A DNA stretch of 64,000 bases. It comes from Acidimicrobiaceae bacterium (GTDB taxonomy: Bacteria > Actinomycetota > Acidimicrobiia > Acidimicrobiales > Aldehydirespiratoraceae). The stretch lies in assembly GCA_009843915.1 (NCBI GenBank), contig VYCM01000098.1:1-64000 (forward strand), in the 5' to 3' direction. The translations under genes were made by a program, and so were the position numbers. The notes beneath the pieces were generated by a model. It saw nothing but the letters and a program-made list of their open reading frames with translations. It ran no database searches and was not told where the DNA came from. This document shows, piece by piece, positions 11,324 to 36,201 of this stretch; position 1 is the stretch's first letter, and each line of letters starts with the position of its first letter.

Positions 11324-11339
11324 GCGCTCCACCGGCCAC

Positions 11340-12044
11340 ATGAAGCGGATCCTGGGGATCGGCTGCCTGGCCGGTCTGGCCGCGGGCGTCGCGGCGGCCC
11401 TGTTCGCGGCGACCGCCGGCCGGGGGCCGATACGCGACGCCATCGCCCTGGAGGACAGCATCAGTCACGCCACCAGCGGCGCCCACCACGAGGACCTCTT
11501 CAGCCGGGGAGTGCAGGAGATCGGCGGCGCGGTAGGGCTGGTCGTCTTGGGGTTGGCTCTGGGCGTCATCTTCTCCGTCGTGCTCGCCGCGGTGGGGCCC
11601 CGGCTGGCCGCGTTCACGCCACTGGCGGCCTCGTTGCGGCTCGGGCTCTTCGGGTTCGTGGCCGTGGTCCTGGTGCCCTTCCTGAAGTATCCCGCCAACC
11701 CGCCGGCCGTCGGCGACCCCGACACCGTCAACGAGCGCACCGTCTTGTACTTCGCCGTGTTGGGCCTCTCGATCCTGCTCACCTGGGCCGTGTGGCGGTT
11801 CCATCTAGGGGTCTCCCTGGCTCCGGTGGCCAAGGCATGGGCGACAGCCGCGCTCTACGGCGCGGGGCTCGCCGTGATCTTCCTGGCCCTGCCCGGGAAC
11901 CCCGATTCCATTGACGCGCCTGCCGACCTCGTGTGGCGGTTCCGCCTGGCCTCGCTGGGAGGCCTGGCCGCGGCCTGGGCGACGCTGGCCCTGGTTACCG
12001 GCACGCTGTTCTCTAGATCAGCCTCCACTCAAGCTTCGGCGTAG
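11340..12044 (+). CDS. cbtA: CbtA family cobalt transporter
   Basis: Multi-TM protein MKRILGIGCLAGLAAGVAAALFAA..., FLKYPANPPAVGDPDTVNERT motif; downstream of cbtB. Confidence 0.85.
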   Translation: MKRILGIGCLAGLAAGVAAALFAATAGRGPIRDAIALEDSISHATSGAHHEDLFSRGVQEIGGAVGLVVLGLALGVIFSVVLAAVGPRLAAFTPLAASLRLGLFGFVAVVLVPFLKYPANPPAVGDPDTVNERTVLYFAVLGLSILLTWAVWRFHLGVSLAPVAKAWATAALYGAGLAVIFLALPGNPDSIDAPADLVWRFRLASLGGLAAAWATLALVTGTLFSRSASTQASA

Positions 12045-13186
12045 ATCTCCATGTGGCGTCGGGCCGTGCTGGTCCACGAGTAGCGGTCCGCCGTGACGGC
12101 TCCAGCCGACCGCAGGCGACGCACCAGTTCCCGGTCGTCTCGCACCCGGGCCATGCCGGCCGCCAGTGAGGCAGGGTCGGCCGCCCCGGTCAACACCGCG
12201 TCGACATCATGGGTCAAGAACTCCCGGAAGACCTCGATGTCGGAGGCGACCACCGGCAGCCCGGCGGCCAGAGCCTCCAGCACGACCAGGCCCCAGCCCT
12301 CGCTGATCGACGGGAACACGAAACTGTCGGCCGCACCGAACCAGCCGGGCAGCTCCGTGTCGGGCACCGTGCCCACCAGCACCACGTCGTCCCCGAGACG
12401 CAAGCCGTGGGAGCCCAGCGACCCCAGCACCTCGTCCCGGTAGGCCTGATAGTCCTGGAAGGAGTGGCCGCCCACCACGGCCAGCATCGGGCGCGGGCCC
12501 TGCATGGCCTTCAGCAGGCCCAGCGCCTCGACCAGGTAGCGCGAGCCCTTGCGGGGCTCGACGCCTCCCACCGTCAGGTACAGGTGGCGTTCGCCGGCGT
12601 CGATCCTCGACCGCAGGGCGTCGCGCTCCTCCGGCGACTGCGCCGCACCCGCGAACCGCTCGACGCGCACGCCGTTGGTGACCACCGCCGCCTTCACGCC
12701 GTAGTCGTCGAGCAGGCGCCTCCGCCACGGCTCGCTCACCACCAGCACCCGGTCCGGCTCGGTGATGGCCGCGTCCTGACACTCGATCAGCGCCGGGGTG
12801 GTGAAGTCGTCTATGTGGTGGACCGTGCGGAACAGCCGGAACCCGGCTCCCCGGTCGCGAACCCGGGCCGCGGCTCGGGCCGAGATGCAGTCCTGGGTGT
12901 GAATGATGTCGAAACGGTCCGCGAGGTCGGCACCAAGGCCCGATTCGAGAGCATCGATGTGGGAGAACACCCGCTCGGTCAGAGTGCCCGCCCGGGTCGG
13001 CGCCTCGACGATGTGCACCGGCACTGAAGTGGGCCGGAAGAACCCCTCAGCCGGGTCGCCCAAGGCGACCAGCATCACGTCAACCCCCTCCGCGGCCAGA
13101 GCCTCGGCCAGCTCCACGCTGTGCACCGCCCCGCCCCGCGGCCTCACCGAGTAGGTGGCAATGGCGACACGCGCCGTCAGGGTCAC
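12029..13186 (-). CDS. MSMEG_0565-type family 4 glycosyltransferase
   Basis: MTLTARVAIATYSVRPRGGAVHSVELAEALAAEG..., HTQDCISARAA, GGVEPRKGSRYLVEAL, SEGWGLVVLEALAAGLPVVASDI. Confidence 0.85.
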   Translation of the reverse strand: MTLTARVAIATYSVRPRGGAVHSVELAEALAAEGVDVMLVALGDPAEGFFRPTSVPVHIVEAPTRAGTLTERVFSHIDALESGLGADLADRFDIIHTQDCISARAAARVRDRGAGFRLFRTVHHIDDFTTPALIECQDAAITEPDRVLVVSEPWRRRLLDDYGVKAAVVTNGVRVERFAGAAQSPEERDALRSRIDAGERHLYLTVGGVEPRKGSRYLVEALGLLKAMQGPRPMLAVVGGHSFQDYQAYRDEVLGSLGSHGLRLGDDVVLVGTVPDTELPGWFGAADSFVFPSISEGWGLVVLEALAAGLPVVASDIEVFREFLTHDVDAVLTGAADPASLAAGMARVRDDRELVRRLRSAGAVTADRYSWTSTARRHMEIYAEA

Positions 13187-14736
13187 GCCGTCAGGCTTGT
13201 CGACAGGTCGTGATGGACGAGCGCCGGGTCGCGGTTCACAAGCGCGGCCGCGGCCAGAGCGGCCCGGGCGTTGGTCTCAGCCACGACGCAGCCCGCTTCC
13301 CGCATGATCGAACGCTGCCGCTCGAAGCCCTGGGGATCCCGGTCGGTACCCAGCACGTAGGCCACGACGGCTGCCCCCGACGCCACTATCTCCGCCGCGG
13401 CCGGAGCGAGCATGGCGGCCGGGTCCGGATGGGCGCCGTCTCCGATGACCACGTCGAGCAGCACCGCCGCCACCGTCGGGTCCGAGACCTGGCCTTGCAG
13501 CCGTTCGAGCCTTGCCTCGGGATCGATCATGGGGTGGGGGCGTCCCACCGTGAACTCCTCCTCGCCCAGATCCAGGCACACGTGGCCGCCGGGTGGGCCG
13601 GGCAGCCCCCATTCAGGGTCGAGCGGCGTGTTGGAGAACACCGGGCCGATGTGGCGGCTGGCGATGGTCATCGCCTCGTAGGCCAGCGTGCCCCCACTGA
13701 ACAGTCCCACCATCCGTCTCCGGCGCTGGTCGAGGGAGGTGGAGAGCCGGGCGGTCGCGGCGTCGATCGTGCCGATCGGGTCGGCGCCGGTGTGACCGAG
13801 GCGATCCAGGGACTCCACCACGCCCTGTTCGAGCGTGTTGCACACCGCTACTCCGGGCGCCACAGCCACGGGCCGGTCCAGACCGATCAGAGCAGCCACG
13901 ATGGGCTTGTTGGTGGCCTTGGTCAGCAGACGCTCGGCCACAGCCGGAGCCGGCGGCTTGGAGACCAGCAGGATCAGCTCCGTTCCGTCGTGACGGTCGA
14001 ACGCCTCCACCGCGGCTTCGGCCATAAGCCCGCCGACGTCTTCAGACAGGTCGCGGCCCCCCACGCCGATTACATGTGAGACACCGGATCCCCAGCGGTC
14101 GAGCAGCGTCATGGCCTCCTGGGCACCCGTGCCCGCGGCCGCGACCACTCCCACCGGCCCGGGCGCCACCCGGTTGGAGAAGCCGAGCCCAACCCCGCCC
14201 AATGCGGCCGTGCCCGCTCCGGGGCCCATGACCAGCCGGCCTAGGGAGCGGGCCCGTCGCTTCAAGTCGATCTCGTCGGCCAGGGGGACGTTGTCACTGA
14301 ACAGCAGCACGTCGAGGCCGCGGGTCAGGGCCTTGTGAGCCTCGAGGGCCGCGTAAGGGCCCGGAACGGAGAGGATGGCGACGTTGGCCTCAGGTGCCGA
14401 GACCAGAGCCTCGTCCAGATCGGCGGGGCGTGTGTCTGCAGGCGGGACGCCGGTGCCGGTTGACCCGCTCTCCTCGAATAGCACCGCCCAGGCTCTCAAC
14501 AGGGCTGCCGGCAAGTGCTCGTCGGTGCCCCTGATCGCAAGAACGAGATCGTTGGCCGCGGCACCGTCGAGCCCTTCGGTCACTCCCTCGTCAAGCAGGA
14601 CCTCCAGGTTGGCCGGCGTGGCCATGAGCGCCCAAGCCCAGTCGACGCCGGGAGCCTCCAGCATGGCGCGAGTCGCCTCGAGCAGTCGCACGCTGTCGAC
14701 GTAGCAGTCTGCGACAACCTTGGCTCTGGCGGTCAT
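13183..14736 (-). CDS. fdrA: FdrA family protein (AllF-like, putative oxamate carbamoyltransferase subunit)
   Basis: VLLFSDNVPLADEIDLKRRARSLGRLVMGPGAGTAALGGVGLGFSN... is the FdrA/succinyl-CoA-synthetase-like signature. Confidence 0.86.
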   Translation of the reverse strand: MTARAKVVADCYVDSVRLLEATRAMLEAPGVDWAWALMATPANLEVLLDEGVTEGLDGAAANDLVLAIRGTDEHLPAALLRAWAVLFEESGSTGTGVPPADTRPADLDEALVSAPEANVAILSVPGPYAALEAHKALTRGLDVLLFSDNVPLADEIDLKRRARSLGRLVMGPGAGTAALGGVGLGFSNRVAPGPVGVVAAAGTGAQEAMTLLDRWGSGVSHVIGVGGRDLSEDVGGLMAEAAVEAFDRHDGTELILLVSKPPAPAVAERLLTKATNKPIVAALIGLDRPVAVAPGVAVCNTLEQGVVESLDRLGHTGADPIGTIDAATARLSTSLDQRRRRMVGLFSGGTLAYEAMTIASRHIGPVFSNTPLDPEWGLPGPPGGHVCLDLGEEEFTVGRPHPMIDPEARLERLQGQVSDPTVAAVLLDVVIGDGAHPDPAAMLAPAAAEIVASGAAVVAYVLGTDRDPQGFERQRSIMREAGCVVAETNARAALAAAALVNRDPALVHHDLSTSLTA

Positions 14737-14748: not shown

Positions 14749-15729
14749 TCAGGAGATCGGCGCAGGCACGGGGTCGGGCACGATCCGTGTGCCCCGGGGA
14801 CCCTCAATCACGCCGGCGGGCTCATCGAGAGTCGCGTACACGAGCTCGGGCGTGGTTATCGCCGAGATCCGCCCCGCGGCCTCCACGAACTCGATGGCGG
14901 CCTCCACCTTGGGTCCCATGCTGCCGGGAGGGAACTGGCCGTCGACCAGGTGGCGCCGGGCAACCGATGCGGTCATCTCCGTGACCACCTCCTCCTGCGG
15001 GGTACCGAAGTTGAGGCGCACTGAAGCCACACCGGTCACCATAACCAGGGCCTGGGCGCCCACGGAATCGGCGATCCTCTCCGCGGCGAAGTCCTTGTCG
15101 ATGACCGCGTCCACCCCCCGGTAGGCGCCGTCGGCCGAGCGCGACACCGGGATCCCGCCGCCCCCGCCGGCCACGACTATGTATCCGAGGTCGACCAGCG
15201 TCGATATGGCCGGAGCCTCGATGGGGGCCATCGGCCGCGGCGACGGGACCACCCGCCGGTAGCCCCGGCCCGAATCCTCGACCATGGTCCACCCCCGCAC
15301 CGATGTCAGCGCGTCCGCCTCGGTCCGGTCGAAGAATGGGCCGATGGGCTTGGTGGGGCGCGACAGGGCAGGATCGCCGGGGTCGACCTCGACATGCGTG
15401 ATGACGGACACCGCGCCGGTGATCTCGCGCCTGCACACTTCATTGAGCGCCAGGCAGATCAGGCTCCCCAACTGCCCTTGCGTCATGGCGCCCAGAGTGA
15501 ACAACGGCAGCGCGGGCACGAGGTCGGTCGAGCCCTCGTGCTGGATGGCCAGGTTGCCGACCTGGGGGCCATTGCCGTGGACGATCACCACGTTCCATCC
15601 CTTACGGATCAGCGACCGCACCGAGTGGGCCATGGCCAGGGCGTTGGTGTACTGCTCCTCGAGGGTGCCGCGCTGGTCCTCGCGAATGAGTGCATTGCCT
15701 CCGAGAGCGAGAATTGCGGTCTCGGCCAA
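14749..15729 (-). CDS. arcC: carbamate kinase
   Basis: ILALGGNALIREDQRGT..., VIVHGNGPQVGNL, VVAGGGGGIPV, DAVIDKDFAAERIADSVGAQALVMVTGV. Confidence 0.95.
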   Translation of the reverse strand: MAETAILALGGNALIREDQRGTLEEQYTNALAMAHSVRSLIRKGWNVVIVHGNGPQVGNLAIQHEGSTDLVPALPLFTLGAMTQGQLGSLICLALNEVCRREITGAVSVITHVEVDPGDPALSRPTKPIGPFFDRTEADALTSVRGWTMVEDSGRGYRRVVPSPRPMAPIEAPAISTLVDLGYIVVAGGGGGIPVSRSADGAYRGVDAVIDKDFAAERIADSVGAQALVMVTGVASVRLNFGTPQEEVVTEMTASVARRHLVDGQFPPGSMGPKVEAAIEFVEAAGRISAITTPELVYATLDEPAGVIEGPRGTRIVPDPVPAPIS

Positions 15730-15895: not shown

Positions 15896-16552
15896 ATGCC
15901 GAGCGGTGCGAGTGACACAGACCCCACCGCCGTGCTGGCCGCCCACTGGAACGAGAGCGAGCGTCGCCTCTATCCGACGGCCACCACGAACCCCGACGCC
16001 TACCAGTCGGCCGTGAAGCTGGTTCGTGCCGTGGCCGACGCCCTAGTTGATGTTTCCGATCTCGAGGAGTTGGTCCAGAGGTGGGAGTATCGCTCCGCCG
16101 TCCTGGACGCAGCGGTCAGCGCCACAGGCGAAACGATCGCCTACGGCCTCACAGAGGCGACCGCTGGCTGCGGGTTCGCCATCCGCCGCCGCGAGCTGCT
16201 GAACGAGCGGGCCGAGCGTCAGCGCCGCGAGAGCATCAACGCGGCACGCCAGGGGGGCCAGGTGTGGGCGGTTATCCACGAGCAGGGCGACCTGGCGTCC
16301 GGCCTCGCCGATCCCTACCAGTGCATGGAGATGCACTTGCCGACCGGGCTGGCCGTCGTGAGCATGGTCGAGCCCGACCCGTCGACCATGACCCCCGTTT
16401 ACGTGGTGACGGTGACGGATACGGGGGAGCCCGGCGGGGGCGCGCCCGGCATCGACGCGGGGTCCTTCGAGGATCTGGAGACAGCCGATCTGGAGCTGTT
16501 CGAGGAGAACCGGCGGGCCATGAGAAGTCGCGTCGAGGCCGCGGGAGCTTGA
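15896..16552 (+). CDS. hypothetical protein
   Basis: Uninterrupted ORF divergent from carbamate kinase; MPSGASDTDPTAVLAAHWNESERRLYPTATTNPDAYQ...; no family recognised. Confidence 0.7.
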   Translation: MPSGASDTDPTAVLAAHWNESERRLYPTATTNPDAYQSAVKLVRAVADALVDVSDLEELVQRWEYRSAVLDAAVSATGETIAYGLTEATAGCGFAIRRRELLNERAERQRRESINAARQGGQVWAVIHEQGDLASGLADPYQCMEMHLPTGLAVVSMVEPDPSTMTPVYVVTVTDTGEPGGGAPGIDAGSFEDLETADLELFEENRRAMRSRVEAAGA

Positions 16553-16565: not shown

Positions 16566-17540
16566 CTAGCTCCACAGTCCGGTGATGGGCTCGCTCTTGA
16601 GGTCGAACACCTCGCGGCTCTCGCCGCCCGCTCGCAGAGTCAGCACGCCGCTGCCGTTGACGGAACCGGCCACCGCGGCGGCCAGTCCTGCCGAGCGGAA
16701 CAGGTCCACGCACGGGCCGGGCCGGTCGGTGGTGAGCCAGAACGCATAGGTCGGGAAGCAGACGAGCCAGCGGTCCAGGCTCACTCCGGCCGGTGCCGGC
16801 AACCCGTCCAGGTCGATCTCCGCCCCGAGCCTTCCGGGTTCGAGGAGCATGGCCAGCGAGCCGATGGACCCGGCCATGCTGACGTCCTTGGCTGCCTGCG
16901 CCAGGTCCATGCGAGCGGCCTCGGCCAGCAGGCGCACGTCTCGGGCCAGGTGTGGGCCCTGATGTCCGAGTGTGGTGAAGAAGGGGAAGTCGGTCCTCAT
17001 GCGGCCTTCGAGGCAGCAGGCGAACACGAGATGCTGTCCCGGACGGGCCCGGCTCACCGACAGCACCCGGTCGGCGTCACCGACAGCGAAGGCCGACAGC
17101 GCCGGCTCGCCCTCGTGCTCGCTGATGTGCCCGCCCACGATCGCCACGTCGTAGAGGGCGGCCGCCTCGGCCATGCCCTTGAGCGCCTCGGCCCCGACCG
17201 AGGCCGGCGCCACTACCGTGTTGACGATGGCCCTGGGCGCCGCGCCCATGGCCGCCAGGTCGTTGACGTTGGCGAGCACGGCCGCCACCCCGGCCGCCCG
17301 GGGATCGGCCGCCACGAATGCGGGATGCATGGCCTCGCCGCAAACGATCATGGAGCCGAGGCCGGCCATCTCGACGACGGCGCCGTCGTCGCCCGGTCCG
17401 GTCAGCGGATCGGAGGGGCCGACCACCCGGCGGACGGCTCCGATGGCCTGCTTGGCACGCAGGCCCGCATGGTCCCTGACCGCGGCGACCAAGTCGTCCA
17501 GCGATGGAGGCTCAGGTGAGGCTGGCTCCCGAGACGGCAC
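16566..17540 (-). CDS. AIR synthase-related protein, sll0787-like family
   Basis: PGDDGAVVEM, AAVLANVNDLAAMGA PurM-like motifs, IVGGHISEHEG; start MPSREPASPEPP assumed. Confidence 0.84.
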   Translation of the reverse strand: MPSREPASPEPPSLDDLVAAVRDHAGLRAKQAIGAVRRVVGPSDPLTGPGDDGAVVEMAGLGSMIVCGEAMHPAFVAADPRAAGVAAVLANVNDLAAMGAAPRAIVNTVVAPASVGAEALKGMAEAAALYDVAIVGGHISEHEGEPALSAFAVGDADRVLSVSRARPGQHLVFACCLEGRMRTDFPFFTTLGHQGPHLARDVRLLAEAARMDLAQAAKDVSMAGSIGSLAMLLEPGRLGAEIDLDGLPAPAGVSLDRWLVCFPTYAFWLTTDRPGPCVDLFRSAGLAAAVAGSVNGSGVLTLRAGGESREVFDLKSEPITGLWS

Positions 17541-18361
17541 GGCCGCACGGTACAGCAGCGGCCGGCCCGCTCTCCGCGGTCTCGGTCGGCCAGGCCGTGC
17601 TCGAGGCCGCGTCGGAGGACTTCGCCGGCCGGGTTGCGGGGGTGTTCCGCGACGGGTTCTACGTCTCGGGACCCTCCGAGACGTTGTTCGCGGTGCTCGG
17701 TCCCGGCGCTTGGCCAGGGCCACTGCATCTTGTCGTCGTTGAGCTACCCGATCTCCCGGGCCGGCACGACCGGGTGAGCGTCGGCGGAGGAGTCCTTACC
17801 GCGGGCCGGCTGACGGTCCGCCTCGACGGGTGCGAGCTCTGGGCGCCGAGCCTGCCCGAGCACCTCGGTGCCGACTCACGGGCATGGCAGGACCTGGCTG
17901 CGTGTCCCGCTCCCGAACTGGCCACCGTCTGGGAAGCGGTGACCGGCGATGTCGGCCGCGGCGACCTGACGGCTGCAACCTGCCGGCTCCAGGGTCGCGG
18001 AACCGGGCTGACCCCCAGTGGCGACGACGTGCTGGCCGGCATCCTGCTAGTCGGTGCTATCGACCCGAGCCGCCAACCTGACCTCGCCCACCTGGCCCTC
18101 GAGGCCCGCACCACCCGGCTGAGTCGCGCCTTCCTGCGCTGGGCCGCGGCCGGCCACAGCATCCAGCCCGCGCACGCCCTGCTGGACGCCTCCGCCTCCG
18201 GCGATCACGCCGGGATGCGCGAGGCCGCGGCGTCGCTGGCTGGCGTGGGCACCACGTCAGGCCGGGCGCTCGTGGCCGGCATCGCGCTGGCCGCCACCGG
18301 ACTCGCTCTCACGAGCGCACGTACAATGACCCCCCGGCCCGCTGACGTGCGACGCCGGTGA
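17504..18361 (+). CDS. DUF2877 domain protein (AllH-like, putative oxamate carbamoyltransferase subunit)
   Basis: GRGTGLTPSGDDVLAGIL signature and GTTSGRALVAGIALA; exact start uncertain (17504 or 17516) because it overlaps the divergent AIR-synthase-like gene. Confidence 0.82.
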   Translation: MEAQVRLAPETARPHGTAAAGPLSAVSVGQAVLEAASEDFAGRVAGVFRDGFYVSGPSETLFAVLGPGAWPGPLHLVVVELPDLPGRHDRVSVGGGVLTAGRLTVRLDGCELWAPSLPEHLGADSRAWQDLAACPAPELATVWEAVTGDVGRGDLTAATCRLQGRGTGLTPSGDDVLAGILLVGAIDPSRQPDLAHLALEARTTRLSRAFLRWAAAGHSIQPAHALLDASASGDHAGMREAAASLAGVGTTSGRALVAGIALAATGLALTSARTMTPRPADVRRR

Positions 18362-18374: not shown

Positions 18375-19163
18375 ATGCCCATCTCTGAGTCTCCCCGGTT
18401 CCTTCGAACGGCCGCCCGGACGATCAAGCCGCGCCGGCGCGGCATCACCCATGTCATCGACACTGGCACGCCGCTGGCGGGTATCGAAGCACTAGTGGAG
18501 GCCTACGGCGCGTTCGTGGATGTCTGGAAGTTCGGTTTCGGCACCGCCTACCTCGACGCCGCGATCGCATCCAAGATCGAGTTGCTCCAGGCCCACGACA
18601 TCAAGGCCTGCCCCGGGGGCACGCTGCTGGAGGCCGCTTGGTGGCAGGGCCGCAGCGAGGAGTTCTTCGGTTGGGCCCGGTCCCTGGGCTTCGATTGCGT
18701 GGAGGTCTCGAGGGGCGCGACCGGGATGCCCCCGAGCGCCAAGCTGGCACTGATCGCCGCGGCCCGCGACCACACCTTCGAGGTGTTCGCCGAGGTGGGG
18801 AGCAAGGATCCCGGTGAGCCGGCCCGACCGGAGCAGTGGCTCGAGGAGGCACGCCGCGACATCGACAGCGGTGCCCGCTGGCTGGTGGCCGAGGGTCGGG
18901 AGAGCGGGACCGTGGGCCTCTACACCGCCGATGGGCTGGTAAGGGCGGATCTCGTGGACGCCCTCGAGGGCGCCGGAACGGATGCGCCGGTGGTGTACGA
19001 GGCCCCCCGACGCGAACAGCAGGCGTGGCTTGTGAACCACTTGGGGGCGAACGTCAACCTGGCGAACATCCCGCGCGACGAGATTCTCGCAGTGGAGGCC
19101 CTCCGGCGCGGGTTGCGATCCGACACCCTCCGAACCCGTCTTGCTGCTGCATGTTCGACCTAG
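18375..19163 (+). CDS. comA: phosphosulfolactate synthase (ComA family)
   Basis: GITHVIDTGTPLAGIEALVEAYGAFVDVWKFGFGTAYLD..., KACPGGTLLEAA, GFDCVEVSRGATGMP, EVGSKDPGEPARPEQWLEEARRDIDSGARWLVAEGRESG. Confidence 0.9.
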   Translation: MPISESPRFLRTAARTIKPRRRGITHVIDTGTPLAGIEALVEAYGAFVDVWKFGFGTAYLDAAIASKIELLQAHDIKACPGGTLLEAAWWQGRSEEFFGWARSLGFDCVEVSRGATGMPPSAKLALIAAARDHTFEVFAEVGSKDPGEPARPEQWLEEARRDIDSGARWLVAEGRESGTVGLYTADGLVRADLVDALEGAGTDAPVVYEAPRREQQAWLVNHLGANVNLANIPRDEILAVEALRRGLRSDTLRTRLAAACST

Positions 19164-20068
19164 ACCCCGCCTCACCCAACATCATGCCGTCGCGGTACCA
19201 CCAGGTGTCGGTGGCCGCGGTCCCGAGCCTGGCGCCGGATGATCTGGTCGCCCGGTTCACCGGTCGGGAGGCCTACTTCCGGACCAGGTTCGTGGTGGCC
19301 CGCCTCGACGGCGATCCCGGCCGCTGCGCGCTGGTGGAGCTAGCCCGCGACGGCAGCGACGAGCTGTTCTCGCCGGCGGCGGCCGCCCGGGTGCTGGCCT
19401 CCGCCGAGGATTGCGCCTACATGAAGGACGACGACGCCGACCTGGGCATCGCTTCCCACCTGGCCCGGCTCGCCCGTCGATGCCCCGACCGGCGCTGCGT
19501 CGTGGTGGAGGGCCGGTACCGCCATGTCAGCTTCCTCCTGAATGCCGCGCCGGTTCAGATCACCGTGGTGGACGTGGTGCCGCCCGAGCCCTCGAAGCTC
19601 GCCGACCAGGTGGCCAGGGTCTTGGACTTCGCCGAGAATCTGCCCCCCATTGCGGTGCAGGAGCGGATCGTCGACAGCCGGGCGCTGGTGACCGAGCCGG
19701 TACCCGAAGGGCTGATCGTCCCGTGCCGGGGCGGCGGGGTCGACATCGAGGGTGTAACGGTGTCGCACCTCGACGAGCGCCCGTCGTTCGCCGGATCGAC
19801 CCTGCTCGGCTGCGAGCGCTCCCAGCAGATCCACCGCTGGTTCTACGGCACCGAGCCGGCCCGGACCATCGACTGGTGCCCGCGCCGCCTGATCGGCGCC
19901 GACGAGTCCGTCGACGGGCTCGTGCTGAGCCGCTGCTGCATGCTGGATGAGGGCCTCGAGCAAGAGGCACGCACGGTGATGGTGCCTTGGGGGGCCACCC
20001 TCATCGAGGTGCATGAGGGCCTCCGCACACTGGCCGGTTCCGGAGACGGCACGTGGACGCGCACCTGA
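19151..20068 (+). CDS. conserved-looking protein of unknown function in the comA/lyase module
   Basis: Intact 305-aa ORF MFDLDPASPNIMPSRYHQVSVAAVPSLAPDDLVARFTGREAYFRTRFVVARL..., overlapping the comA stop and the next gene start. Confidence 0.75.
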   Translation: MFDLDPASPNIMPSRYHQVSVAAVPSLAPDDLVARFTGREAYFRTRFVVARLDGDPGRCALVELARDGSDELFSPAAAARVLASAEDCAYMKDDDADLGIASHLARLARRCPDRRCVVVEGRYRHVSFLLNAAPVQITVVDVVPPEPSKLADQVARVLDFAENLPPIAVQERIVDSRALVTEPVPEGLIVPCRGGGVDIEGVTVSHLDERPSFAGSTLLGCERSQQIHRWFYGTEPARTIDWCPRRLIGADESVDGLVLSRCCMLDEGLEQEARTVMVPWGATLIEVHEGLRTLAGSGDGTWTRT

Positions 20069-21402
20069 TCGATTCAGCCATCTACGGGCACGGCTGGTCG
20101 ACCGCGGAATCGGTGGCCATCTTCAGCGAGCGGGCCCGCCTGGAGAGATGGGTGCACGTGCTGAAGGCCCTCGCAGCCGCCCAGGCCGACCTGGAGATCA
20201 TTCCGGAGGCGTCGGCCCGGGCCATCGACGGCCTCGACGCCCGGAGCCTCGACCCGGCTGCACTGGGCGCCGAGACCAGGCGGACCTCGCACTCCACCAT
20301 CGGGCTGGTGCGCGAGCTCCGGTCCCGCCTGCCTGAGCACGCCCGCGAGCACGTCTACTACGGCGCCACCGTGCAGGACGTGTCCGACACCGCCGCCGCG
20401 TTGGAGATGCGAGACGTCGGGGGGATCGTGTGGCGCGACCTGAGGGCTGTGGAGGGCTCGCTGCTCGATCTGGCCGTGCGCCATCGCGACACGCCCATGC
20501 TGGGCCGCACTCACGGCCAGCCCGGGGCCCCGGTGACCTTCGGCCTAAAGGCCGCGTCGTGGGCCGACGAGACGGCCCGGCACCTGGAGAGGTGGCGCCA
20601 GAGCCGTCCCCGCCTGGTGGTGGGACAGCTGGCCGGCGCGGTCGGGGCCTTGGGCTTCTACGGCGAATTCGGCCTCGGATTGCGCAGACGGTTCTGTGAG
20701 CGCCTCGGTCTCGGCGAGCCGACCATCTCGTGGCTCACCGCCCGGGATCGGATCGCCGACTTCGCCAGCAACGCGGCTCTGGTGTCGGCCACGATGGCCC
20801 GCATGGCCAACGAGGTGTACAACCTCCAGCGGCGCGAGATCGGCGAGGTGGCCGAGGCCGCGTCCGAGGCCACGATGGGCAGCATCACCATGCCCCACAA
20901 GCGCAACCCTGAGCGCAGCGAGCAGATGGTCACGCTGAGCAGGCTGGTGCGATCAGCGGCGGGGGTGCTGACCGAGACCATGGTCGGCGACCACGAGCGC
21001 GACGGCCGCACCTGGAAGACCGAGTGGGTGCTGCTGCCGGAGATTGGCCACTACTTGCTGGCCCAACTGGGCCTGGCCCGCGGCCTCGCGGCGAGCATCG
21101 AGGTGGATGCCGAGGCGATGGCGGCCAACCTGGAGACCATGGGCGACTTCGGGTCCCAGGAACTGCTGAGGCGCCTGTCGGCCCGCCTGGGCAAGCACCG
21201 GGCCAATGACGAGCTCCAGCAGGCCTACCGGACCGCCCGGCTCAGCGGCCGCCCGCTGACGGAGGTCCTGGAGCATGTCGCGTCGCCGGCCGACCTGGAG
21301 GGTCTGGACCGGCCCGAGACCGGCGCAGCCTCGGCGATGGTCGACGCGGTCGTAGCCGCCGCCTCCGGCCGCCGATCCGCCGAGACCGATGAGTGGGCCT
21401 AA
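20053..21402 (+). CDS. aspartase/fumarase-superfamily lyase (adenylosuccinate lyase-like)
   Basis: GRTHGQPGAPVTFGLKAASW and GSITMPHKRNPERSEQ superfamily signatures. Confidence 0.9.
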   Translation: MDAHLIDSAIYGHGWSTAESVAIFSERARLERWVHVLKALAAAQADLEIIPEASARAIDGLDARSLDPAALGAETRRTSHSTIGLVRELRSRLPEHAREHVYYGATVQDVSDTAAALEMRDVGGIVWRDLRAVEGSLLDLAVRHRDTPMLGRTHGQPGAPVTFGLKAASWADETARHLERWRQSRPRLVVGQLAGAVGALGFYGEFGLGLRRRFCERLGLGEPTISWLTARDRIADFASNAALVSATMARMANEVYNLQRREIGEVAEAASEATMGSITMPHKRNPERSEQMVTLSRLVRSAAGVLTETMVGDHERDGRTWKTEWVLLPEIGHYLLAQLGLARGLAASIEVDAEAMAANLETMGDFGSQELLRRLSARLGKHRANDELQQAYRTARLSGRPLTEVLEHVASPADLEGLDRPETGAASAMVDAVVAAASGRRSAETDEWA

Positions 21403-21405
21403 CCG

Positions 21406-22926
21406 GTGAGTGTGGACCCGAAGGGATCAAACCCGGTGCCGCGGCTCGCCGGGCCGTCGTCGGAGGCGCCGGCCCGGGAACTGGTCGACGCCGGGTTCGC
21501 CTGGGAGATCGCCGACGCACCGCTGCTGCACCACGGTCTGAACCTGGCCGACCTGGGTCACGTGCTCGACCTACGGGCCCGGAGCCTCATTCCCGAGCCG
21601 GCCGCGGCCGCGCTGCTGGGCGTGCTGCTGGAAGCCCACCGCACCGACCCCGCCGACTTCCCGTACGACGCCGCCACCGGGGAGGTCTACAACTCGCGGG
21701 AGCGCCACTTCGCGCAACGCATCGGCGACTCCGCCGGGTGGCTCCATGCTGGTCGTCCCCGGCGGGAGGCGGCCCGGGTAGCGCTGAGGCTGCTGCTGCG
21801 GTCCCAGACGGCACACCTCATCGAGGTGGGGGCCGACTTCGCGTCGGCGGCCTCTGCGGTCGCCGCCGACCACGCTGAGACCTTCATGGGCGACCAGACC
21901 TACCTCCAGCAGGCCCAGCCGTCGACATTCGGGCACTACCTCCTCGCGTTCGTTCCACCCGCGCTGCGTGACGGTGAGCGGTTCTCGGCCGCCCTCGACC
22001 AGGTGAACACCAGCCCCGGCGGCGCGGGCTGCGTCAACGGCAGCCGGCTGCTCGACGACAGGGGCGCCATCGCCGACGCGCTCGGGTTCGACGGCGTGAT
22101 CGCCCACACCCGCGACGCCATGTGGCAGACCGACGTCTTCATCGACCTGCTGGCCACTTCGGCCAGCATGATCGCCAACCAGGCCAAGCTGGCCGAGGAC
22201 CTCGAGATCTGGTCCAGCCAGGAGTTCGACTACGTCGACCTGGCCGGACCGTTCACCCGGGCCTCGGTGCTGATGCCCCAGAAGCGCAACCCCTACGCAC
22301 TGTCGATCATCCGGGGAGCCAGCGGGGTGCTGATCGGCCGGATGAGCGGCTTCCTGGCCGTGGTCAAGAGCCCGTCGGCTCGCAGCGACAACCTGATCTT
22401 CGCCTACGGCGAGATCCCCAGGGCCCTCGACTTCACCATTCGGGTGAGCGCCCTCACCACCGGAGTGGTGAGAACCCTGAGCGTCAACGCCGAGCGCATG
22501 TGGTCTGAACTGGAGCGCGGCTTCGCCCAGGCCACCGACCTCGCCGAGTACGTGATGGTGGCCGGCGGCGTCGACTACCGCACGGCCTACAACGTGGTGG
22601 GAAGGACGGTGCGAGCAGCCAGCCGCCAGGGGCTCACCGGCCTCGACATCACACCGCAGATGCTGGACGACGCGGCCTCCGAGGTCTGCGGTCGGCGGCT
22701 CGGGCTCGACCCGGCCGCCCTGGCCGACGCCCTGGACCCGCGCCGTATCGTGGCCACCCGCAGGGCGACTGGCGGAGCGTCCCCCGGCGAGGTCAAGTCG
22801 ATGGCCGAGGAGTTCACCGCCCGGGCCGCCCAGCTGCGGGCCCGGGCCGTCGAGGAGCAGGAGCGCTACGCCCACGCCGAGGAGGCGCTGCTGGCGCAGG
22901 CCCGAACTCTCGCCGGATTGGTGTAA
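21406..22926 (+). CDS. aspartase/fumarase-superfamily lyase (argininosuccinate lyase-like)
   Basis: EVYNSRERHFAQRIG, TYLQQAQPSTFGHYLLAF, ASVLMPQKRNPYALSIIRG. Confidence 0.88.
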   Translation: MSVDPKGSNPVPRLAGPSSEAPARELVDAGFAWEIADAPLLHHGLNLADLGHVLDLRARSLIPEPAAAALLGVLLEAHRTDPADFPYDAATGEVYNSRERHFAQRIGDSAGWLHAGRPRREAARVALRLLLRSQTAHLIEVGADFASAASAVAADHAETFMGDQTYLQQAQPSTFGHYLLAFVPPALRDGERFSAALDQVNTSPGGAGCVNGSRLLDDRGAIADALGFDGVIAHTRDAMWQTDVFIDLLATSASMIANQAKLAEDLEIWSSQEFDYVDLAGPFTRASVLMPQKRNPYALSIIRGASGVLIGRMSGFLAVVKSPSARSDNLIFAYGEIPRALDFTIRVSALTTGVVRTLSVNAERMWSELERGFAQATDLAEYVMVAGGVDYRTAYNVVGRTVRAASRQGLTGLDITPQMLDDAASEVCGRRLGLDPAALADALDPRRIVATRRATGGASPGEVKSMAEEFTARAAQLRARAVEEQERYAHAEEALLAQARTLAGLV

Positions 22927-22943
22927 GGGGCGCTCGCGTTTCT

Positions 22944-22974
22944 CTTGCGACGAGTCGCTGTCTTATAGTTGACA
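22944..22974 (+). promoter_or_regulatory. putative promoter/operator of the nitrile hydratase genes
   Basis: CTTGCGA-N13-TATAGTTGAC, 49 nt upstream of the NHase beta start; near-duplicate of 31066-31096. Confidence 0.55.
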
Positions 22975-23017
22975 CGCCGGGTCAGCGACCGAGGAATCCA
23001 GCAAACGGGAGGCTCCG

Positions 23018-23677
23018 ATGGACGGCATCCACGACATGGGCGGAATGCAGGGCTGGGGCACGGTGGCCATCGACCCCGACGAGCCGGTCTTCCGGGAGCC
23101 CTGGCACGGCCGGGCTTTCGCCATGGGGGCCATGTCGATGGGTCTGTCGGGCACCAACCTCGACGCCTTCCGCCACGGCCTGGAACGCCTGCATCCCTAC
23201 GACTACCTGGTCGACGGCTACTACGGGCGCTGGCTGGCCTGCGCCGAGACGCTGCTGGTCGACAGCGGCGTGCTCGCGCCCGGAGCGGTGGAGGCCAGGG
23301 CCCGGAACCTGACGGGGGAGACGGTCGACGAGCCCGCCGACGTCGAGGAGAACAAGCCCGTCTACGAGCGAGGCGGCGCCGGCTCGCTGCGCGAGATCGA
23401 CGAAGTGCCCGCCTTCTCGCCCGGTGACCGCGTGCGGGCCAAGGACATGCGAACCGGCGGCCACACCCGGATGCCCGGATACATCCGTGGTCGCACCGGC
23501 ACCGTCCGCGCCCTGCGCCCCGCCGCGCTGCTGCCCGACACCAACGCCCACTTCTTGGGCGAGAATCCCCAGCACGTGTACACGGTGGAGTTCGACTCCA
23601 CCGAGCTGTGGGGCCCGGACGCGGAGGCGGCCGCGCTGCGCATTGACCTGTTCGAGAGCTACCTGGAGGCGACCTAG
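23018..23677 (+). CDS. nthB: nitrile hydratase subunit beta
   Basis: MDGIHDMGGMQGWG N-terminus, FSPGDRVRAKDMRTGGHTRMPGYIRGRTGTV, QHVYTVEFDSTELWG. Confidence 0.96.
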   Translation: MDGIHDMGGMQGWGTVAIDPDEPVFREPWHGRAFAMGAMSMGLSGTNLDAFRHGLERLHPYDYLVDGYYGRWLACAETLLVDSGVLAPGAVEARARNLTGETVDEPADVEENKPVYERGGAGSLREIDEVPAFSPGDRVRAKDMRTGGHTRMPGYIRGRTGTVRALRPAALLPDTNAHFLGENPQHVYTVEFDSTELWGPDAEAAALRIDLFESYLEAT

Positions 23678-24274
23678 ATGGCTGACACCAACACCACCGA
23701 CCGGCTCCCGCCCGCGGTGCGGACCGAGGCGCTGGAGTCCCTGCTGACCGAGCGCGGCCTGGTCAAGTCCGAGGTGCTCGACGGCTTCATCAACCGTTTC
23801 GTCAACGACGTCGGCCCCATGAACGGCGCCAAGGTGGTGGCCAAGGCGTGGACCGACCCCGACTACCGCCAGCACCTGCTGGCCGACGGCACCGGCGCCA
23901 TCAAGGAGCTGGGCTTCGCCGGACCCCAGGGCGAGCACATCGTGGTGGTCGAGAACTCCGACGACGTGCACAACGTGGTGGTGTGCACGCTGTGCTCGTG
24001 CTACCCGTGGCCGGTACTGGGCCTGCCGCCGGAGTGGTACAAGGACCCCGCCTACCGCAGTCGCATGGTGCGCGAGCCCCGCACGCTGCTGAGCGAGATG
24101 GGCCTGGACCTCGACGACGATGTGGAGGTCCGGGTGTGGGACTCCAGCGCCGAGAACCGCTACCTGGTCCTTCCCCAGCGCCCCGAGGGCACCGACGATC
24201 TCTCCGAGGAGGAGTTGGCCGCCCTGGTCACCCGGGACGCGATGGTCGGGGTGGCCAAGGTCGGCGCCACCTAG
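23678..24274 (+). CDS. nthA: nitrile hydratase subunit alpha, cobalt type
   Basis: [22 protein letters not shown] metal-binding motif (Thr in VCTLCSC = Co type). Confidence 0.96.
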
Positions 24275-24284
24275 CCGGACGCTC

Positions 24285-24650
24285 GTGTCTCTGACGCTCG
24301 ACATCGAGGGGCCGGCCGCCCCTCCCCGGCTCAACGGCGAGTTGGTGTTCGACGAGCCCTGGGAGGGCCGCAGCTTCGCCATGGCCGCGGCTTTGGCCGA
24401 GGGGGGCCACTTCAGCTGGGACGAGTTCCGTGACCACTTGATCGCGGCCATCGCCCGCTGGGAAGCGGACCCCTCCGGCGAGTACCGGTACTACGAGCGC
24501 TGGCAGGAGGCCCTCGAGTCGATCGTCGCCGAACGCGAGATCGTGGCGGGACCCGAGATGGACGAGCTGGCCGCGGCCTACGCAGCCCGCCCGCCCGGCC
24601 ACGATCACGGCGAGAACGACCATCACCACCACGACCACGACCACAGTTGA
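24285..24650 (+). CDS. nitrile hydratase accessory/activator protein with His-rich C-terminus
   Basis: NHase beta N-terminal-like sequence ELVFDEPWEGRSFAMAAALAEGGHFSWDEFRDHL... ending GHDHGENDHHHHDHDHS. Confidence 0.88.
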   Translation: MSLTLDIEGPAAPPRLNGELVFDEPWEGRSFAMAAALAEGGHFSWDEFRDHLIAAIARWEADPSGEYRYYERWQEALESIVAEREIVAGPEMDELAAAYAARPPGHDHGENDHHHHDHDHS

Positions 24651-24658: not shown

Positions 24659-24725
24659 TTGACTGACCCTGGTTGAGGGGTTTAGGTTATGAAATAAGTA
24701 TGTCTCATCCGAAATGTCGGGTGAG
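24659..24725 (+). promoter_or_regulatory. promoter (TTGACT-N18-TAGGTT) plus 9-bp inverted repeat operator/hairpin upstream of the AmiS/UreI gene
   Basis: TTGACT 24659-24664, TAGGTT 24683-24688, inverted repeat CTCATCCGA-AATG-TCGGGTGAG 24704-24725 (1 mismatch); same architecture at 31551-31617. Confidence 0.65.
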
Positions 24726-24743
24726 GCCAGCGAAAGGCTTGTC

Positions 24744-25271
24744 ATGCCTCCCATAACCATCGTGTTCATTGCCACCGGCTTGATCGTGTGGCTGAATGCC
24801 CTCTTCTTCCTCGGCGTAGGAGCCGACCAGAAGGAAGGGGGTTCGAATCCGCTCGTCAGCATCGGCAATGCGACCCTGGTCGTGGGCCTGCTGAACCTGG
24901 TCCAGGCCGTCTACATCATGTGGGCCCGTCCCCTGGACGACGCGTCGGTCGTCCTCGCCGGGCTCGTCACGTTCTACGGCCTCTTCTTCGTGGTCCTCGG
25001 CAAGAGCGAGGTCAACGGATGGGACCTGCGGGTAGTGGGGAACCTCGCCGTGCCGACCGCCATCCTCCCGCTGTTCTGGTGGGACTTCTTCTCGGGAAGC
25101 TGGATGTTCCAGTCGATCCTGATCGTCTGGCTGGTCGCCTTCGGATCGGTGGCCCTCACCACCTACGGCAAGCTCGAGGCCAGGCTCCTCGGCCTGGTGC
25201 TCGCCGGAACCGCCATCTACACCTTCTGGGTCCCGGCCCTGATCCTGGCCACGGGCAACGAGATCCCCTAG
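24744..25271 (+). CDS. AmiS/UreI family acid-activated amide/urea channel
   Basis: FFLGVGADQKEGGSNPLVSIGNATLVVGLLNLVQAVYIM, multi-TM; directly downstream of NHase. Confidence 0.85.
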   Translation: MPPITIVFIATGLIVWLNALFFLGVGADQKEGGSNPLVSIGNATLVVGLLNLVQAVYIMWARPLDDASVVLAGLVTFYGLFFVVLGKSEVNGWDLRVVGNLAVPTAILPLFWWDFFSGSWMFQSILIVWLVAFGSVALTTYGKLEARLLGLVLAGTAIYTFWVPALILATGNEIP

Positions 25272-25381: not shown

Positions 25382-26500
25382 GTGTCGCTGGCCGAGCTCA
25401 TAATCGACCTGCAGTTCAAGGGTCTGAGGATCAACGCTCCCTTCGAGCGCCGGCCCGGCGGGGCCGGCCCCTCGGACGCGGGGATGGTCTGGATCGAGGG
25501 AACCGCGGTGACGGTTCCGGTGGACGCCTCCTTCGTGGCCGACTCCCCCTACACGCTGGAGCCCGAGGACGTCGGCTTCGGCATATACGCCGACGGGATC
25601 CGCCTCGCCGGCGCCGCTCCGGCCGACCGGCCCCGCTTCTACGGCCTGACCACCGACGACGGCGTCCCGTACTGGCACCTTGCCCTGATGCACCTCGACT
25701 CGCTGGCCAGCACCGTCCTGCAGACCTGCGCCTACTGGGGCAACGAGGACCAGTGCCGCTTCTGCGGCATTGGCGTGTCGCTGGCCTCAGGCAGCACTGT
25801 GCTGGTGAAGCGGCCGGCGCAGCTGGCCGAGGTGGCGGTGGCGGCCAAGGAACTGGACGGCGCCGTGGACGTCACGCTGACCACCGGCTCCACTTACGGC
25901 CGCGACAAGGGAGCCCTCTATGTGGCCAGGTGCGGGGAGGCCATGAAGGAGTCCTCGGGCCTCCCGGTCGAGGTGCAGTTCGAGCCGCCCGACGACCTGA
26001 GCGTGATCGACCAGGTCGCCGACCGGGGCATCGACTCGGTGGGGATCCACATCGAGACCTTCGACCCGGCCGTGCTGGAGTGGGTCGCGCCCCCGAAGTA
26101 CCGCACCGGCGTCGAGCGGTACTTCGAGACCTGGGAGTACGCCGTCGAGCGCTTCGGCGAGGGCCAGGTCTCCACTTATGTGATCCTGGGCATGGGCGAG
26201 GACCCGGACCTGATCGTGGAGGGCTGCCGGCGGGCTGCCGACATCGGCGTGTACCCCTTCATCGTGCCGTTGCGGCCCGTGCCCGGCTCCCTCATGGGCG
26301 ACTGGCTGCCCCCGTCCTCCGACTACATGGAGAACGTCGCTCGCAAGGTCGCCCCGTACCTGGTGGAGCGGGGCTTGACCGCGGATCTGGTCGCGGCGGG
26401 CTGCGCACGTTGCCAGGCCTGCTCGCCGGTGGGGGCGATGGAGCGAGAGCTGCAGGCCAACGGCGACCGCAAGCTCATACCGGTGCGAGCGACAGGCTGA
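25382..26500 (+). CDS. MSMEG_0568-type radical SAM protein (NitD-like)
   Basis: ALMHLDSLASTVLQTCAYWGNEDQCRFCGIGVSLASGSTVLVKRPAQLAEV; followed by MSMEG_0567-type GNAT. Confidence 0.85.
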   Translation: MSLAELIIDLQFKGLRINAPFERRPGGAGPSDAGMVWIEGTAVTVPVDASFVADSPYTLEPEDVGFGIYADGIRLAGAAPADRPRFYGLTTDDGVPYWHLALMHLDSLASTVLQTCAYWGNEDQCRFCGIGVSLASGSTVLVKRPAQLAEVAVAAKELDGAVDVTLTTGSTYGRDKGALYVARCGEAMKESSGLPVEVQFEPPDDLSVIDQVADRGIDSVGIHIETFDPAVLEWVAPPKYRTGVERYFETWEYAVERFGEGQVSTYVILGMGEDPDLIVEGCRRAADIGVYPFIVPLRPVPGSLMGDWLPPSSDYMENVARKVAPYLVERGLTADLVAAGCARCQACSPVGAMERELQANGDRKLIPVRATG

Positions 26501-26505: not shown

Positions 26506-27060
26506 GTGAGGCCGTCCGAGCGGATCGTGTGCTGGCGGGCTGTCGACCCGTCCGCGAAGAGCTGGCATATGCGTATCCGTCACCGCATCTTCGTCGAGGA
26601 GCAGCGGGTCATTCCCTTCACCGACGTCGACGACTGGGATCGCGATCCCGGCACCGTCCACGTTCTAGCGGGACGGGGATCGGTGGCGATCGGGACTGTG
26701 CGGCTGTACCGCACCGACACGGCCGGCCGCTGGAAGGGTGACCGGCTGGCCGTGCTGCCCGGGCACCGGGCCGGCATCGTGGGCATGCGGCTCGTGCGGT
26801 TCGCGGTCTCCACCGCAGCCGCCGCGGGGGGCGACGTGATGGACGCCTTTGTTCAACTCCAGAACGTCAACTTCTTCGAGCGTCTGGGATGGGAGCACAA
26901 CGGCCCGCCCGTGGCCTACTACGGGCTGCCCCATCAGCCGATGACATTCGAACTTTCCCGCGCCGGCAACCTGGCCGAGAGCGAGATTCCCGACGACGCC
27001 TGCCTGCGCCTGCCCGCGGCCCGCGACGCGCCCAGCGCGCTGCTGGTCACGATGTCCTAG
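26506..27060 (+). CDS. MSMEG_0567/sll0786-type GNAT N-acetyltransferase
   Basis: RHRIFVEEQRVIPFTDVDDWDRD..., GIVGMRLVRFAVSTAAAAGGDVMDAFVQLQNVNFFERLGW. Confidence 0.82.
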   Translation: MRPSERIVCWRAVDPSAKSWHMRIRHRIFVEEQRVIPFTDVDDWDRDPGTVHVLAGRGSVAIGTVRLYRTDTAGRWKGDRLAVLPGHRAGIVGMRLVRFAVSTAAAAGGDVMDAFVQLQNVNFFERLGWEHNGPPVAYYGLPHQPMTFELSRAGNLAESEIPDDACLRLPAARDAPSALLVTMS

Positions 27061-27073: not shown

Positions 27074-28483
27074 ATGGGCGTCATGGAACTGCCCGAACGG
27101 GTCGCGGTCGTCAACATCGGGCTTGAGCGGTTCGAGACGGCCGTACGCGACCAGGGCGCGCCGGCGGTAGGGGTTGACTGGCGCATCCCGGCCGGCGGTG
27201 ATGCGGAGGCAGTGGCCGTGCTGGGCAAACTGCTGGGCCCCGTCGCCGACCGGATAGACGCGGCCAACGCTGAGGTGATCGACCGCCTCGATCGCGGCGT
27301 TCCAATGCTCGTGGGCATCGAGACCGCGGCCGCAGTGATCGAGGGCCTCGAGTCGGGCACGATCCTTCACTGCGGTCCCCCCATCGGCTGGTCCGAGATG
27401 TGCGACCCGCTCAGGCGCTCGGTCCGCGCCGCGGTCGTGGCCGAGGAGTGGGCCCCGGACCGCGACGCCGCCGACCACATGTTGAAGGCCGGCGAGATCC
27501 GGCTCGGGGCGGCCAACGAGCATGCCACGGTGGTGCCCATGGCCAGCGCCATCGGGCCCAGCGCCCCGGTGTACGTGGTGTCCGTCGACGCCGGAGGCAC
27601 CACGGCCTACGCCAGCCTCAACCAGGGCTCGGGAGCAGTCCCGTGGTTCGGGGTGGACTCCGAAGCGGCCATCGAACGTCTCAGGTTCCTGCGCGACGCG
27701 CTGGCCCCGACCCTGGCCCGGGCCCTCGACCGGGTCGGTCCTATCGACGTCTTCTCGCTGGCCGCCCAGGGCATCACCATGGGCGACGACGTACACATGC
27801 GGGTCCAGGCCACTACCAACCTCCTGCTGCGCGACCTGCTGCCGCATCTGGTCCGCGCCGGCACTGACAGGATCGGCGAGGTGGCCGACTTCCTGAGCAC
27901 CAACCACCTGATGTTCCTCAACATCGCCATGGCGGGCGCTCGCGCCCTCACCGAGTGGGCCGGTCAGGTACCGGACTCGAGCATCGTCACCACCATGTCC
28001 CGCAACGGAACCACCTACGGCATCCGTCTGGCCGGCGACTCCGAGACATGGCACATCGCGGCGTCGCCCCCGGTGCAGGACGCCCTGTACTACCCCGGTC
28101 ACGGACCGGACACGAGCGCCCCCGACATCGGCGACAGTGCCGTGCTGGAGTTGGTGGGCCTCGGTGGAGCGGCCGCGGCCAACTCGCCCGCGGTGGCCGG
28201 CTTCCTCGGGGGCAGGATGGCCGACGCGGCCGCGGTCACCGCAGCCATGAGCCGTATCTGTGCCGGGACCAGCACCCGGCTCCGGCTGCCCGTTCTCGAC
28301 AACGCCGGCACCCCGCTGGGGGTCGACGTCCGGCGGGTGGTCGAGAGCTCGACAACCCCTGCGGTGAACACCGGGATCGTCCACGTCTCCGACGGCTCCG
28401 GCCAGGTCGGCGCCGGGGTGGCTCACGCCCCCATCGAGTGCTTCCGCCAGGCCCTCCTCGACCTGGACCGCCGCCTCGCCTGA
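27074..28483 (+). CDS. DUF1116 family protein (AllG/YlbE-like, putative oxamate carbamoyltransferase subunit)
   Basis: GTILHCGPPIGWSEMCDPLRRSVRAAVVAEEW..., AAQGITMGDDVHMRVQATTNLLLRDLLPHL, MSRNGTTYGIRL. Confidence 0.87.
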   Translation: MGVMELPERVAVVNIGLERFETAVRDQGAPAVGVDWRIPAGGDAEAVAVLGKLLGPVADRIDAANAEVIDRLDRGVPMLVGIETAAAVIEGLESGTILHCGPPIGWSEMCDPLRRSVRAAVVAEEWAPDRDAADHMLKAGEIRLGAANEHATVVPMASAIGPSAPVYVVSVDAGGTTAYASLNQGSGAVPWFGVDSEAAIERLRFLRDALAPTLARALDRVGPIDVFSLAAQGITMGDDVHMRVQATTNLLLRDLLPHLVRAGTDRIGEVADFLSTNHLMFLNIAMAGARALTEWAGQVPDSSIVTTMSRNGTTYGIRLAGDSETWHIAASPPVQDALYYPGHGPDTSAPDIGDSAVLELVGLGGAAAANSPAVAGFLGGRMADAAAVTAAMSRICAGTSTRLRLPVLDNAGTPLGVDVRRVVESSTTPAVNTGIVHVSDGSGQVGAGVAHAPIECFRQALLDLDRRLA

Positions 28484-29753: not shown

Positions 29754-29808
29754 TTTTGCGAGCTTTAGATCTTTTGCGAGCTTAGGATTTTTTGCGAGCT
29801 TTGGATTT
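29754..29808. repeat. 3 x 18-bp tandem repeat TTTTGCGAGCTTTAGATC-like
   Basis: Copies at 29754, 29772 and 29790 with exact 18-bp period. Confidence 0.9.
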
Positions 29809-36188: not shown

Positions 36189-36201
36189 AGGAGGTAACCC
36201 C

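Follow-up and report, generated by a model that had tools for sequence, protein, structure and literature searches.

The 64,000-nucleotide stretch analysed here (hereafter the window; positions 1 to 64,000 of contig VYCM01000098.1, assembly GCA_009843915.1, from an Acidimicrobiaceae bacterium) carries four adjoining genes that, as judged from family models, trees and gene order, correspond as orthologues to xcbB, xcbA, xcbD and xcbC of bacterial coenzyme M (CoM) biosynthesis. This Xcb module forms the centre of a ~22-kb cluster, the parts of which are spread over 11-34 kb of the window and include genes for a nitrile hydratase, for Nit1C-like proteins and for an AllFGH-type transcarbamylase with a carbamate kinase. 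We infer that the module provides a CoM-type thiol that serves this nitrile- or cyanide-nitrogen-salvage cluster rather than epoxide metabolism, a reading to which we assign a probability of roughly one half, and in which the product, the reactions and the physiological link are all predicted from the genes. The surroundings, which the first-pass annotation of this DNA did not mention, are the strongest clue to Xcb function. The breakdown of alkenes and epoxides is the setting in which bacterial CoM has been placed so far, whereas most of the Xcb relatives sampled reside, across phyla, in the cluster of nitrile hydratase or nitrilase, Nit1C-type and transcarbamylase genes.

An Xcb module with a closed XcbE slot

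All four open reading frames (ORFs) were confirmed on one strand (+), arranged head to tail and either overlapping or about 4 nt apart:

18375-19163, + strand: xcbB/comA, phosphosulfolactate synthase homologue (PF02679, 248 bits; TIGR03849, 239 bits, cut-off 280; aligned to solved ComA structures)
19151-20068, + strand: xcbA (DUF7714) (NF052538, 297 bits, cut-off 150; PF24830, 270 bits; AlphaFold pLDDT 94)
20053-21402, + strand: xcbD-like lyase of the aspartase/fumarase superfamily (AFS) (best model NF052536, 506 bits, cut-off 600; in a clade with XcbD of Py2, JS614 and NBB4; GSI loop)
21403-21405, no strand: closed slot, site of an xcbE gene of ~0.9-1.3 kb in most relatives
21406-22926, + strand: xcbC-like AFS lyase, predicted to eliminate phosphate (best model NF052535, 436 bits, cut-off 575; in a clade with XcbC of Py2, JS614 and NBB4; ASV loop)

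The core of a ComA homologue plus two AFS lyases had already been likened to XcbB, XcbC and XcbD, and the protein families, the lyase clades and the conserved ComA motifs all bear this out. XcbB is present as a single copy in the genome. Alignment to solved ComA structures dispels the concern that its catalytic residues might have been lost, because the protein keeps the lysine of the EVGxK motif, which we take to be catalytic, together with the EGRESG, EAP and VNLANI motifs. The arrangement of the module is not a product of chance, since the identical gene order was found again in dozens of genomes.

The lyases carry the signatures GSITMPHKRNP (20053-21402) and ASVLMPQKRNP (21406-22926) originally read from the sequence. 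They group with XcbC and XcbD of Xanthobacter autotrophicus Py2, Nocardioides JS614 and Mycolicibacterium chubuense NBB4 (tree support 95/96 and 93/87), apart from argininosuccinate lyase (ASL) and adenylosuccinate lyase (ADSL), in a window XcbC/XcbD tree whose long branches make the placement of the outgroup approximate. The signature loop reads GSI or SSI in all XcbD proteins, both Py2 copies included, and R-[A/S/P/T]-S-[V/I/K] in XcbC, where the window protein has ASV. The second serine of the loop, catalytic in this superfamily (Ser295 in Escherichia coli ADSL), is missing from both window lyases, as it is from the Xanthobacter enzymes. General AFS similarity might suggest that these proteins are ordinary ASL or ADSL enzymes, but a canonical ASL (547 bits, GSS loop) and two ADSLs are located elsewhere in the genome, and tree and loop alike place the window lyases with XcbC and XcbD, which refutes this idea for practical purposes and upholds the original distinction from housekeeping lyases. 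Both proteins score under their NCBIfam cut-offs, yet these are their best models. XcbD proteins of the Xcb-bearing supercluster described below form a separate clade.

The 305-aa product of the second gene had been described as an unknown protein occupying the niche of XcbE, and neither part of that description holds. It belongs to the XcbA family (NF052538), which coincides with PF24830 (DUF7714) and is known to accompany bacterial CoM genes; the proteins adjoining xcbB in NBB4 and JS614 align with it. Synteny comparison revealed that XcbA adjoins XcbB even in clusters possessing XcbE, the slot for which is found between xcbD and xcbC, and family assignment and synteny together rule out XcbA as a substitute for XcbE. 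A 308-aa protein adjoining xcbB1 in mycobacterial vinyl chloride clusters has been named xcbF1 (PMC8727900). The AlphaFold model of XcbA is confident (pLDDT 94, pTM 0.90), and no PDB counterpart was found by fold (best E 0.013, TM 0.17) or by sequence. Judged from this model, the protein appears to have a new fold, with conserved cysteines and one histidine. In Methanosarcina acetivorans, a control genome from an archaeon that makes CoM by a different route, the XcbA family model yields matches below its cut-off; this distant relative may hint at the function of XcbA.

The first-pass annotation had noted that no XcbE-like pyridoxal phosphate (PLP) enzyme is visible near the module, and the finding extends to the whole genome. 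The slot is closed, with xcbD and xcbC about 4 nt apart, and the best match to the XcbE model NF052537 (cut-off 450 bits) scores 32.6 bits on another contig of what is a metagenome-assembled genome (MAG) of 88% completeness, a value that bounds genome-wide negatives such as this one. A PLP gene does lie between xcbD and xcbC in five genomes of the same order, and XcbE is the best NCBIfam model for all four slot genes scored (199-235 bits). Slot lengths split cleanly over the loci, at ~0.9 kb or more with XcbE and under 200 nt without it, and the best XcbE profile match is at least 230 bits in XcbE-bearing genomes and at most 47 bits in XcbE-less ones. The gene is kept in 45 of 54 long cluster loci. 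XcbE-less loci, the group count of which was compared with alkene-cluster rows only, fall in at least four places on the XcbC tree when losses are counted by eye: the window clade, locus L041, a Ruegeria locus (L034) and a deep-branching group of actinobacteria that accounts for one or two losses. In the Ruegeria operon, allH overlaps a gene for a cystathionine-beta-lyase-like protein (TIGR01324, 349 bits, cut-off 366), which suggests a replacement carbon-sulfur lyase encoded there. No Cys/Met PLP lyase was found beside the cluster on its own contig (C40); such lyases occur only on other contigs of the genome. Two further XcbE-less clusters (L123 and L127) also lack xcbB beside xcbA, and their sulfonate precursor may originate elsewhere in their genomes.

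When the window is compared with the Acidimicrobiaceae MAG SB0675_bin_25 (L030), the DNA over the cluster is mostly ~74-89% identical. However, positions 20971-23403 (2433 bp, from the last part of xcbD through xcbC and into the nitrile hydratase beta gene) and 23645-24186 (542 bp) are 100% identical, which could reflect recent interspecies recombination or a chimeric MAG contig. Despite this possible chimerism, the same XcbE-less arrangement recurs in L028, L029 and L032.

Conservation and content of the surrounding cluster

XcbA loci from GTDB genomes were collected as the best 80 of 150 relatives, ranked by similarity to the window protein. Among these, 57 clearly reside with the cluster and 3 with alkene genes; the other 20 loci are short or partial, and many of them still hold an OsmC, AIR-synthase-like or AllG gene. 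Selection on similarity to the window XcbA skews the ratio between cluster and alkene loci, and a phylum-wide sample of 398 genomes was searched for XcbA loci to offset this bias. The sample added eight XcbA loci of sufficient length; every one has All and OsmC genes, and alkene genes occur in none of them (0/8).

Co-occurrence was counted over 199 genomes of the order Acidimicrobiales, seven of which carry XcbA. A radical S-adenosylmethionine (SAM) gene scoring over its cut-off is present in all seven (12 carriers in total, P = 3.6e-10), and one AllG subfamily (at least 61% identity) is found in exactly those seven genomes, the next match being at 42%. Other families of the order carry the cluster too, as do genomes across Actinomycetota, and variant forms of it occur in Ruegeria, Paraburkholderia and Methylocystis. 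OsmC and a flavoenzyme of the CoA-disulfide-reductase (CoADR) family are among its most constant partners, as counted over the 54 long loci, and are kept in XcbE-less loci as well. The radical SAM proteins of actinobacterial Xcb clusters form a clade of their own, whereas the Methylocystis protein belongs to the canonical lineage. Because the Methylocystis Xcb genes sit beside nitrilase-type Nit1C genes and this canonical radical SAM, Xcb pairs with two combinations of nitrile enzyme and radical SAM protein. The stretches taken from canonical Nit1C loci of the order (L117-L121) contained no matches to Xcb, AllFGH or OsmC.

Around the module, the window carries the following genes of the cluster:

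11169-12044, + strand: CbtA cobalt transporter subunit (PF09490, 174 bits; also beside the cluster in L027, L028, L030, L016 and L018)
12029-13186, - strand: MSMEG_0565 family glycosyltransferase (TIGR04047, 376 bits, over cut-off)
13183-14736, - strand: AllF/FdrA-like subunit, CoA-ligase fold (PRK06091, 392 bits, cut-off 433; PF00549)
14749-15729, - strand: carbamate kinase (NF009007, 316 bits, cut-off 266; TIGR00746, 322)
15896-16552, + strand: conserved hypothetical protein of the cluster (matches no family; homologues hold this position in 16 of the 54 long loci)
16566-17495, - strand: AIR-synthase-like protein, sll0787/NitF-like (TIGR04049, 241 bits against a cut-off of 321; start estimated from the extent of the match)
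17504-18361, + strand: AllH-like subunit (PF11392, 70 bits)
23018-23677, + strand: nitrile hydratase beta subunit (TIGR03888, 212 bits, over cut-off)
23678-24274, + strand: nitrile hydratase alpha subunit, cobalt-type CTLCSC (TIGR01323, 306 bits, over cut-off)
24228-24650, + strand: nitrile hydratase accessory protein with an uncertain start (TIGR03889, 73 bits, over cut-off; PF21006)
24714-25271, + strand: AmiS/UreI-like amide or urea channel (PF02293, 26 bits, at cut-off)
25382-26500, + strand: MSMEG_0568 family radical SAM protein, NitD-like (TIGR04043, 364 bits, cut-off 304; clade separate from canonical Nit1C)
26560-27060, + strand: MSMEG_0567 GNAT protein, NitE-like (TIGR04045, 88 bits, over cut-off)
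27074-28483, + strand: AllG-like (DUF1116) subunit (PF06545, 222 bits; subfamily limited to XcbA genomes within the order)
30392-31348, - strand: XRE-cupin regulator, coding part begins inside the ORF (PF01381, PF07883)
31148-31519, + strand: OsmC-family protein (PF02566, 73 bits; found in 47 of the 54 long loci)
31647-32969, + strand: CoADR-family flavoenzyme, candidate thiol-disulfide reductase (best model TIGR03385, 265 bits, cut-off 579)
33286-33771, + strand: MSMEG_0572/Sll0783 family protein, NitB-like (TIGR04044, 201 bits, cut-off 110)

The CTLCSC motif is present in all 25 nitrile hydratase alpha homologues checked, and CbtA may supply cobalt to this enzyme. When aligned to solved structures, the flavoenzyme retains the CGxPY cysteine.

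Between allG and the cupin regulator gene lies an AAA-ATPase gene with a winged-helix domain (28511-29635, - strand; PF13191, PF13412), which was not found as a common gene of the cluster. It is followed, ahead of the regulator gene, by three tandem copies of a 139-bp unit (29832-30253, 94% matches) and an adjoining three-copy 18-bp repeat (29754-29808); L028 and L030 have a homologous 139-bp unit. Just downstream of the cluster (36154-41377), ORF translations reveal a branched-chain-amino-acid-type ABC transporter (substrate-binding protein, ATPases and permeases), which might import the cluster substrate.

Predicted function of the module

The chemistry of the Xcb families proceeds from phosphoenolpyruvate (PEP) and sulfite to phosphosulfolactate, then to sulfoacrylate, a cysteine adduct and finally a thiol. 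In the favoured reading, XcbB would join sulfite and PEP, XcbC would eliminate phosphate from the resulting phosphosulfolactate to give sulfoacrylate, and XcbD would add a cysteine-type donor across its double bond. A carbon-sulfur lyase would then free the thiol, a role held by XcbE in most relatives; in the window host, another PLP lyase would take over this last step, or else the product differs. The cobalt nitrile hydratase would convert a cyano group to a carbamoyl (amide) group, the AllFGH-type transcarbamylase would release carbamoyl phosphate, and carbamate kinase would yield ATP, NH3 and CO2, while the CoADR-type flavoenzyme and OsmC would manage the redox state of the thiol. These last two proteins, both frequent partners, fit a thiol product of low molecular weight.

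A bolder version, which we consider unlikely, casts the thiol as a covalent carrier and makes XcbE optional. The flavoenzyme and OsmC would help R-SH capture cyanide as the thiocyanate R-S-CN, the cobalt nitrile hydratase would hydrate this to the S-carbamoyl thioester R-S-CONH2, and AllF, with its CoA-ligase fold, would phosphorolyse the thioester to carbamoyl phosphate and free thiol, leaving carbamate kinase to make ATP, NH3 and CO2. Since a C-linked amide cannot give carbamoyl phosphate, nitrile hydratase, transcarbamylase and carbamate kinase form one coherent line only if the cyano group rides on N, O or S, and with thiol-making genes within the cluster, sulfur would be a natural carrier. 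The hydration step has a precedent in thiocyanate hydrolase, a relative of nitrile hydratase; for the step to carbamoyl phosphate, AllF shares the fold of succinyl-CoA synthetase, which handles a thioester and phosphate. If correct, this version would give CoM a carrier role outside hydrocarbon metabolism.

Set against a CoM-type thiol in general is the prospect, doubtful but worth weighing, that XcbE-less modules make no free CoM and instead produce a different sulfonate, such as the XcbD thioether adduct or an amine adduct of sulfoacrylate, as an end product or as the substrate of a neighbouring enzyme. In its favour, at least four lineages have lost XcbE but retained B, A, D and C, and the supercluster XcbD proteins, which form their own clade, with the window protein below the model cut-off, are in keeping with it. 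However, retention of XcbE in 45 of the 54 long loci, the lyase-like gene in the Ruegeria operon, the presence of such lyases elsewhere in the window genome, and the thiol-redox partners (OsmC and the CoADR-type enzyme) kept in XcbE-less loci all favour a free thiol.

The constancy of these same two partners would also be expected if CoM merely protected the cell as a redox or detoxifying thiol, a mycothiol-like buffer during cyanide or nitrile metabolism that stands outside the nitrogen chemistry. The AllG and radical SAM subfamilies strictly co-occur with XcbA, which goes beyond what a general thiol needs; we judge such a restricted role to be quite improbable. Still harder to sustain is a role in alkene or epoxide metabolism encoded at another place in the genome, which would make the present gene neighbourhood a chance assembly. 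Although this is the best-known use of bacterial CoM (PMC8727900), the neighbours are conserved across families and phyla, and the proposal is largely refuted by a search in which no epoxyalkane:CoM transferase was found in the genome (the cluster genomes tested reached no more than 115 bits, versus 324 and 486 bits in alkene-cluster controls).

Several observations nonetheless weigh against service to the nitrile/cyanide cluster. XcbE is absent from the window genome and from several other lineages, and given the incomplete MAG, a distant copy may have been missed. Scores below the NCBIfam cut-offs for the XcbC, XcbD and XcbE homologues leave some doubt about exactly which substrates these proteins use. 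Both AllFGH and canonical Nit1C are also found without Xcb, and thus the link between Xcb and the cluster is genomic rather than biochemical.

If CoM or an analogue is indeed made there, the cluster would represent a second physiological role for CoM and would provide a context for the accessory genes of Nit1C, so far unexplained, and for the orphan fold of XcbA. Among the papers searched, none links the Xcb, nitrile/Nit1C and transcarbamylase parts. Actinomycetes in culture, for example Pseudonocardia, Kribbella and Nocardioides, make the idea open to testing.

Comparison with known systems

Known bacterial CoM clusters are ordered xcbA-B-C-D-E in X. autotrophicus Py2 and xcbB-A-D-E-C in Nocardioides JS614 and M. 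chubuense NBB4. The window shares XcbB, XcbA, XcbD and XcbC in the actinobacterial order, with the same lyase loops and clades. It differs in having no XcbE, epoxyalkane:CoM transferase or epoxide/ketopropyl-CoM genes, in the separate clade formed by its lyases and in the nitrile/carbamoyl cluster that surrounds them.

AllFGH is the oxamic transcarbamylase of E. coli (PMC11326118). All three subunit families of this AllFGH-AllK system, as well as a carbamate kinase, are represented in the window. However, the window AllF falls below the NCBIfam cut-off, its AllG belongs to the Xcb-restricted subfamily, and no allantoin genes were seen beside the set.

The Nit1C cluster (nitBCDEFGH), which functions in cyanide assimilation in Pseudomonas and cyanobacteria, shares NitB-, NitD-, NitE- and NitF-like genes with the window (names following PMC11049912), along with a flavin oxidoreductase and the MSMEG_0565 glycosyltransferase. 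The NitB, NitD and NitE homologues score over their cut-offs (TIGR04044, TIGR04043 and TIGR04045), and the NitF homologue below (TIGR04049). In contrast to Nit1C, the window has a cobalt-type nitrile hydratase in place of the nitrilase NitC (no Nit6803 match in the window) and a radical SAM protein of another clade, and it adds AllFGH, carbamate kinase, OsmC and Xcb.

Plasmid pSS37A-Re-1 of Methylocystis iwaonis departs from the window in its Nit6803-type nitrilase in place of nitrile hydratase, its canonical-type radical SAM protein and the presence of XcbE. Like the window, it carries Xcb genes, here in the order B-A-D-E-C, beside Nit1C-type genes and AllG- and AllF-like genes, together with OsmC, a cupin protein and a CoADR-type enzyme.

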